Below are positions 21,798-23,138 of a stretch of 64,000 nt of DNA, piece after piece. Positions within the stretch are counted from its first letter, which is position 1, and each line of letters starts with the position of its first letter. The notes below the pieces were generated by a model, which saw only the letters and a list, made by a program, of their open reading frames with translations, made no database searches and was not told where the DNA came from. Origin of the DNA: Lactobacillus taiwanensis DSM 21401 (lineage in GTDB: Bacteria > Bacillota > Bacilli > Lactobacillales > Lactobacillaceae); assembly GCF_001436695.1 (NCBI RefSeq), contig NZ_AYZG01000001.1, forward strand, positions 124,001-188,000, written 5' to 3'. A program made the translations under genes and the position numbers.

Positions 21798-21832
21798 AAA
21801 AAAGGAATTCCATAAAATACGGAATTCCTACA
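21798..21832 (-). terminator. Terminator downstream of the truncated mgtA gene
   Basis: The palindromic GGAATTCC arms form a stem with a 9-nt loop, and a T-run follows on the minus strand. It lies about 15-50 nt after the premature stop of the ATPase fragment. Confidence 0.8.
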
Positions 21833-21846
21833 AATTATTTAGATAA

Positions 21847-22833
21847 TTAATTGTCATATGTCGCTCGAATCCTGGGCGTATCAACATTGGCTTTTACCAA
21901 GTTATTTACAATAGCTGTTGGCATCACTTCAGCCATTATACCAACAGCTATTGCCATAGCAAAAATTAAAGCATTTTCCCAATTGCCACGCATTATTTCA
22001 TTAATTAGTAAAACAACTGGAACAATAACTAGAATCAATGTCAAAAAGATTTTGGTTAATCTTTTCATACCAAAATTAAAGAAATGGTTTTCTAGATTAA
22101 GCTTAGAAAGATTTTGGACTACTCTTCCAAAAACAGTTTCTTTACCAGTCGCAAAAACAACGCCAATGCCTGATCCAGAAAGAATAATTGTGCCAGCATA
22201 TAAAATATTAGCGTAATCTAAGCCATCATTTTTATCAGTGTAATTAGCACTCTTTTTCACAGTATCTTCTTCGCCAAGTAAAGAACACTCTAAATCATTA
22301 CTTTTAAGTAACTTAATGTCAGCGGGAACAATATCTCCAGTTTTAAGTAACACGACATCACCAATTGTTAGATCTTTAGTTGAAATTTTTTGTGGTGTGC
22401 AATCGCGCATTACTTGAGTTGTTCTAGAAATTCGATTTATCAAGTTCTGAATATTAGTATTAATACGAATATTCTGCACAGCAGTTAAAATTACTGAGAT
22501 AAATAAAATAGCTAAAACAAAAATTGCTGGACTTAAGTTAAGAGTACGTTGAGAAGAATTTAGAAAAATTGCTACAATTGCTAAAAAAAATAACGTCAGG
22601 GAAAAAGGAGTTATAAAAGCCTTTAGAAAATAGTGAAGCTTAGTCTTATCATGTTTGATTATTATTTCATTAGAACCGTATTTTGCTAAGCGTTGCCTCG
22701 CATCTTTACTTTGAAGGCCACTAATTGAGGTTTTTAATCGTTGCAGCGTCGCAAACTTATCTTCGCGTGCAATCCGGCGCACCAGCTTGGTGTCTGTAGT
22801 ATTTCTTGTGCCGGAAGTGTTGATTTTGAACAT
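21847..22833 (-). pseudogene. N-terminal fragment of an MgtA-type Mg2+-transporting P-type ATPase
   Basis: Only 328 residues of a protein that is normally near 900 are present: the N-terminal cytoplasmic part (QRLKTSISGLQSKDARQRL), transmembrane segments 1-4 and the actuator domain (IGDVVLLKTGDIVPADIKLL). The frame ends IRATYDN shortly after MPTAIVNNLVKANV, before the DKTGT phosphorylation motif, and a terminator follows. The actuator motif that should read TGE is LGE (CSLLGEEDTVKK). It therefore cannot be an active pump. The ATG at 22833 is preferred because AAAGG lies 9 nt upstream; an ATG nine bases earlier is in frame. The leader is an M-box riboswitch. Decay product or a retained fragment with another role are both possible. 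Confidence 0.85.
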
Positions 22834-22864
22834 CTTCAACATCCTTTCTTAAGAACCTAGCAAA

Positions 22865-22899
22865 CAAACAAAAAGACCGATGCAAAAACTGCATCGGCT
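22865..22899 (-). terminator. Expression-platform terminator of the M-box
   Basis: CCGATGCA and TGCATCGG form a perfect 8-bp stem with a 5-nt loop, followed by TCTTTTTG on the minus strand. It lies between the aptamer and the ATPase start, as expected for Mg2+-induced termination. Confidence 0.85.
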
Positions 22900-22914
22900 T
22901 AAATCCAAGCGATT

Positions 22915-23085
22915 TTTATACTCGTCGTTCAGTTTTAACACTACGTGACGTAAGGTTATTTAACATAACTAGCTGGCTGGGGAGGGCCTTATATCGACGA
23001 TCCCTGTTTGACCCGTTGGCATCTCTGGATGTTGCTGGGCGACAGCATGTGTTCACGTAGGAGTCTCACCTAACAGTTTATTTGC
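22915..23085 (-). ncRNA. M-box (ykoK-type) Mg2+ riboswitch
   Basis: The minus strand reads GTTAGGTGAGACTCCTACG, GAACACATGCTGTCGCCCAG, AGATGCCAACGGGTCAAACA, GGGATCGTCGATATAAGG and AGTGTTAAAACTGAACGACG in order. These follow the conserved M-box core of Bacillus mgtE closely. Family knowledge: Mg2+ binding compacts this RNA and allows termination. The only gene downstream is the truncated mgtA. The whole 22834-23142 gap is accounted for by promoter, aptamer and terminator. Confidence 0.92.
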
Positions 23086-23109
23086 TCTAAATATTTAATT
23101 TCTACTGAT

Positions 23110-23138
23110 ACTTTAACGGCTAACTAGCATTTAGTCAA
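23110..23138 (-). promoter_or_regulatory. Promoter of the M-box transcript
   Basis: On the minus strand TTGACT (23138-23133), 17-nt spacer, TAAAGT (23115-23110). The aptamer begins about 35 nt downstream. Confidence 0.6.

Follow-up and report, generated by a model that had tools for sequence, protein, structure and literature searches.

Genes under riboswitch control are usually assumed to encode the transporter or enzyme of their family name. For the Mg2+-sensing M-box, the aptamer closes in high Mg2+ and the leader stops transcription. The closest described relatives of the protein considered here are the Mg2+-translocating P-type ATPases MgtA and MgtB (TIGR01524; E. coli 8UY7, L. lactis 9ME9), whose N-terminal tail, transmembrane helices M1–M4 and actuator domain are homologous to it and whose control by an M-box it shares. 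The dimer interface of E. coli MgtA is formed by the N and P domains (PMC10925321). In L. lactis MgtA the antiparallel dimer makes its contacts through M7 and M10, and the published Mg2+ site is on M5, M7 and M8 (PMC13174805). The fragment that we describe lacks the N/P domains, the M7/M10 contacts and the M5/M7/M8 site, and literature searches found no paper on such an MgtA fragment.

The locus lies in a stretch of 64,000 nucleotides (the window) from a Lactobacillus genome of 1.87 Mb in 52 contigs, and it was compared across 75 genomes of the same genus, one genome per species. The full aptamer and transcription-termination platform of the described M-box class (ykoK, RF00380) are present, and the gene behind them encodes only the N-terminal part of MgtA.

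The leader and the encoded fragment

The aptamer, terminator and promoter that the first-pass annotation had called intact were all recovered (Table 1). The M-box is full length with a terminator downstream, and its covariance score exceeds the RF00380 gathering score of 44 bits; all fragment carriers have an intact M-box ahead of the fragment, scoring 134–136 bits. The expression-platform terminator is kept in the aligned relatives, both promoter-like hexamers show no difference among the aligned fragment genomes, and johnsonii-type relatives have an equivalent hairpin in the same position as the 3′ terminator.

Table 1 Features of the fragment locus and its neighbors (window coordinates)
Feature	Position	Strand	Basis or remarks
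metG	19751..21796	(-)	downstream neighbor, synteny marker
3′ intrinsic terminator	21803..21829	(-)	directly past the fragment stop codon
MgtA-fragment ORF, 331 codons	21847..22842	(-)	N-terminal tail, M1–M4, actuator domain
Degenerate TGES = LLGEE (residues 188–192)	22267..22281	(-)	motif census
Codons 1–58, strong synonymous constraint, possible RNA hairpins	22669..22842	(-)	dS, codon identity
Expression-platform intrinsic terminator	22876..22898	(-)	10-pair stem and T run
M-box (Mg2+) riboswitch aptamer	22913..23084	(-)	RF00380, 135.3 bits, model 1–169 complete
Promoter-like TTGACT-17-TAAAGT	23110..23138	(-)	5′ of M-box; 9/12 consensus match, chance-level
TPM-domain small membrane-anchored protein	23143..23730	(-)	upstream neighbor; PF04536, 26.2 bits, E 9e-6

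Translation probably starts at the second ATG (22833), which has an AAAGGA Shine-Dalgarno sequence at normal spacing and gives a protein of 328 aa. The initial reading of about 328 residues, comprising the N-terminal region, four helices and an actuator domain with LGE in place of TGE and stopping ahead of DKTGT with a terminator at once after, therefore holds in each particular. The order is N-terminal tail, M1, M2, actuator domain, M3 and M4; the protein ends after TM4, and the whole ATP/phosphorylation domain is absent. Pfam finds only Cation_ATPase_N (PF00690) and E1-E2_ATPase (PF00122), and the closest NCBIfam model, TIGR01524, matches with 179 bits over positions 17–317 of 867, below its equivalog cut-off of 610.75 bits. 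Where the window fragment has LLGEE, the other fragment lineages have FMDED, FTNEG, LTGQA, LTGQN or MNKAP at the TGES position. The TPEMLP site of TM4 reads MAEVMP in the window fragment and is degenerate in all fragment lineages (TAGVMP and TSDAVP, for example), with the glutamate gone in several. The TIGR01524 score, the DKTGT and nucleotide domain, TGES and PEMLP thus all place the fragment outside MgtA as a family of pumps, and Pfam, the trees and Foldseek agree on common descent and a common fold with the N-terminal third of MgtA.

An AlphaFold model built with 74 sequences has a pLDDT of 77, and much of the actuator domain exceeds 90. MgtA is its top Foldseek match, with modest TM-scores of 0.44–0.58 that probably result from a difference in domain orientation. 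Sequence identity is 25–32% to the solved MgtA proteins and about 43% to the intact paralog. Full-length Lactobacillus MgtA has 79 conserved positions, and at 34 of these, mostly in the actuator core (GD, AGD, PAD, GT, GxG and the ATG region), the seven fragments compared all keep the conserved residue; the TGES and TM4 positions of the same set are among those that vary.

Origin and maintenance of the truncated gene

The fragment occurs in 12 of the 75 genomes, at a shared locus, with a shared end and an intact frame, and at 98–40% identity to the window protein. The usual gene order is trpS, dCMP deaminase, TPM protein, M-box, fragment and metG. A homolog of the TPM gene is present in 74 of the 75 genomes, which makes it a conserved synteny marker, and metG comes next in the majority of the carriers read, L. 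colini excepted. Almost throughout the genus, the TPM-domain protein is encoded beside the M-box-mgtA locus. In most other species, such as L. rodentium (G009), a full-length mgtA occupies the place of the fragment. All fragments fall into a single clade (UFBoot/SH-aLRT 97/94, or 100/97 without L. colini). Its sister group is the full-length MgtA encoded at the same locus in L. rodentium and in G005, and one C-terminal deletion is accordingly the simplest history. At the level of sequence, these trees and gene orders show that the syntenic M-box-mgtA lost its C-terminal two thirds once, in the ancestor of the group that includes L. gasseri (G011, which we take to be ATCC 33323), L. johnsonii ATCC 33200 (G012), L. 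hominis DSM 23910 (G013) and L. colini (G014). A sample of 399 genomes from the family yielded no truncated form outside the genus.

A recent truncation, one of the two explanations offered at first, is ruled out, since the fragment is syntenic and monophyletic across 12 genomes whose copies are as little as about 40% identical. A sequencing or assembly break near 21850 is likewise excluded, since independent assemblies, including single-contig genomes, show the same end. The fragment of L. colini (L093) is the shortest at 267 aa and lacks M3–M4; its locus is rearranged, other genes spanning several kb separate the TPM gene from the M-box, metG is not adjacent, and this fragment may be decaying.

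Pairwise dN/dS was computed by the Nei-Gojobori method, whose dS saturates, in five comparisons over the codons past 58. The values were 0.096–0.176, with upper 95% bootstrap bounds of at most 0.28, compared with 0.05–0.08 for the intact second copies and 0.02–0.08 for the canonical syntenic copies; the fragment evolves faster than most intact copies, so constraint is relaxed over part of it. No stop or frameshift interrupts the frame in the 12 genomes, over a synonymous divergence of up to about 1. These sequence comparisons show a gene maintained by purifying selection under an unchanged riboswitch, and they support the other early suggestion, that the riboswitch-controlled fragment has been kept for another job. 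A full ATPase at this place in a relative, together with random disablements here, had been named as the pattern that would speak against such retention; the former exists in L. rodentium, and the latter are absent.

Within the fragment core (22668–21850, compared with L007, L006 and L005) two deep allele types cross species lines between conserved flanks. One type unites L. gasseri with the window species and the other L. johnsonii with G016, contradicting the tree of six neighbor genes, and each tree is strongly supported; alleles have thus moved between species.

Constraint in codons 1–58 and degenerate full-length relatives

The first 58 codons are far more conserved at synonymous sites than their surroundings, a constraint that has to be read with recombination in mind: dS is 0.05–0.36 for pairs of species, and 0.03 for the closest two, compared with roughly 0.35–1.5 in the neighbors and the rest of the fragment gene in the same pairs. 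Identical codons make up 84–95% of this segment, versus 64–70% in the 5′ ends of the neighbors (P between 0.02 and 9e-6 in individual, non-independent pairs). Aptamer, platform and codons 1–58 form a block of 89–98% identity within subgroups, after which identity falls to 59–89%. In intact mgtA genes the 5′ synonymous constraint is weak or absent. A hairpin pair in codons 1–58 fits two compensatory changes drawn from one lineage contrast, and codon-sampling fold z-scores for codons 1–45 range from +0.1 to −2.5, which is no more than suggestive of an RNA structure here. An overlapping or antisense ORF was rejected as the cause of the constraint: the +2 frame is open near the start but is not retained together with a start codon across species. 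A general 5′-end codon effect was also rejected, being smaller in the neighbors and in the intact mgtA genes.

In 15 further genomes the motif census found a syntenic full-length MgtA that has lost catalytic motifs (example loci L124, L133, L142 and L130). In group P1 (nine genomes; G007b, G020b, G043, G044b, G045a, G048a, G051, G058a and G088b) LNGES has become LDGDS, LDGDP, LDSDS or VNGNS, and the hinge motif GDGINDAPA has become G[DN]GNKDxxA. In group P2 (six genomes; G002, G008, G021, G067, G079b and G089b) LNGES has become I[ND]G[DEK][FY] and GDGIND has become GD[KR]xND; the phosphorylation site is DKTGI in four, DKTGT is kept in G002, and G089 has EKTGF, in which the phosphorylated Asp is replaced. 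No motif is lost from the second mgtA copies elsewhere. P1 joins P2 in the tree (98/83), separate from the fragments, and a tree constrained to one origin for fragments, P1 and P2 was rejected (p-AU 0.002). With dS saturated, dN/dS is 0.025–0.039 for P1 where computable and about 0.11–0.12 for P2. From their motifs the P1 and P2 proteins would be inactive; they look like pseudo-pumps of an origin independent of the fragment. In that case catalysis has disappeared here on at least two occasions while the gene stayed in place.

As to other routes of Mg2+ entry, the window genome carries, at another position, an intact mgtA behind an M-box of its own, which answers the question of a full-length gene raised by the first-pass annotation. 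The same holds for nine of the 12 carriers; such a copy is absent from L. hominis (99% complete), from G016 (100% complete, one contig) and from the incomplete G087. No detached C-terminal half of MgtA was found in L. hominis or G016, and a split pump complemented by a separate half was rejected on this ground. Every genome that is at least 90% complete encodes CorA, which makes a loss of pumping tolerable, and MgtE exceeds its cut-off in no genome. That L. hominis and G016 keep the fragment without MgtA further indicates that MgtA pumping is dispensable and that retention of the fragment is independent of it. Three other loci deserve mention. The second copy in G006, a MAG, resembles that of L. 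johnsonii and may be contamination. The intact-mgtA region of G000 (C27:180000-186000; L092) is 97% identical to that of L. gasseri over several kb while other genes differ far more, pointing to regional transfer. In G070 (C1:969834-970695) CorA is apparently split into two adjacent frames, and mgtA does not adjoin the TPM gene.

Possible roles of the fragment and comparison with known systems

Having neither the ATP site nor the phosphorylation site, TGES or the conserved TM4 ion site, the fragment is predicted to be unable to pump. In these gut lactobacilli it has probably taken a new, non-pumping role under scarce magnesium: with transcription halted in high Mg2+, a drop in Mg2+ would relieve termination in the leader and allow the protein to be made. 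We consider it reasonably likely that the fragment is a membrane protein of MgtA ancestry, induced by low Mg2+ and kept under its riboswitch, that does not transport but modulates another membrane component. Such a pseudo-pump would act by binding through its retained actuator fold and M1–M4. Candidate partners are CorA, another P-type ATPase, MgtA where present and the lipid bilayer. The regulation of such a partner is the least certain element of the mechanism.

The partnership raised at the outset was with full-length MgtA, beside which the fragment would insert as a partner or dominant modulator and tune activity or stability, the two M-boxes co-inducing both proteins. Co-regulation by one riboswitch class is direct in the nine carriers with an intact M-box-mgtA, but L. 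hominis and G016 keep a selected fragment without any MgtA, which counts against an obligate MgtA partner, and the interfaces known from E. coli (PMC10925321) and L. lactis (PMC13174805) are missing from the fragment. The suggestion is thereby weakened to an unlikely one, applicable where both proteins occur. The retained leader RNA, also raised early, fares similarly. If leader and codons 1–58 acted as a regulatory RNA or translation-coupled element, the protein would be incidental; the several-fold lower dS in this segment, its near absence as a constraint from intact syntenic mgtA genes and the two compensatory pairs give the idea some support, yet the open frame and low dN/dS of the remaining ORF would be superfluous for an RNA, and the structure depends on one lineage contrast with scattered z-scores. 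We regard the RNA as sole product as quite improbable.

Slightly less probable again is a passive leak or small channel, in which M1–M4 would oligomerize and pass ions in low Mg2+, by analogy with S1T, the truncated isoform of mammalian SERCA1. All four TM helices are kept and a stress-induced truncated P-type ATPase linked to an ion leak is a precedent (PMC7760721); the TM4-site Glu is missing in several lineages, however, the published Mg2+ site is on helices beyond the truncation (PMC13174805), and a leak would leave the actuator fold as a needless constraint. Least probable of all, and already largely refuted, is a slowly decaying pseudogene with its promoter and riboswitch still present. 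The loss of every pumping motif and the faster evolution of the fragment would suit decay, and G007 offers a truly dead second copy for comparison, where on contig C10 (L123:340–660) the M-box runs straight into the last ~45 codons of an otherwise deleted mgtA and the terminator is gone too. The 12 fragments, by contrast, show none of the random disablements, dN/dS near 1 or patchy presence of a pseudogene, and their leader and terminators are conserved.

Extending the preferred reading of a binding pseudo-pump to the P1 and P2 genes, we tentatively propose, with rather less confidence, that the M-box locus has turned from Mg2+ pump to dead pseudo-pump at least twice, by truncation and by full-length motif loss, giving a class of regulatory pseudoenzymes induced by Mg2+ starvation, the truncated clade of which would be joined to an RNA element running from the riboswitch into the coding sequence. 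The family name alone would label the fragment and the degenerate genes Mg2+ transporters; the riboswitch product here appears to be a dead transporter part kept by selection, at a locus that independently lost catalytic motifs elsewhere. Should the fragment prove to regulate the entry of Mg2+, it would count as a pseudoenzyme of the bacterial P-type ATPases, and its function is testable in the tractable species L. gasseri and L. johnsonii.

Compared with MgtA and MgtB, the fragment has no P or N domain, M5–M10, DKTGT, TGES or PEMLP and would not hydrolyze ATP, and the target of its M-box, usually a transporter, is predicted to be a non-transporting protein. SERCA1 S1T is likewise a truncated P-type ATPase without normal pumping and is stress-induced, but it is an isoform of an animal Ca2+ pump gene and is associated with Ca2+ leak, whereas here an old deletion has left a separate bacterial gene. 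MgtR, one of the small regulators of MgtA, is also a membrane protein that could modulate a transporter, but it is a short peptide of unrelated sequence and the fragment is a 330-residue pump derivative. The Mycobacterium tuberculosis M-box (PMC12810186) similarly has a first controlled ORF that is not a transporter; there the platform is translational/Rho-dependent and the small upstream ORF is unrelated.
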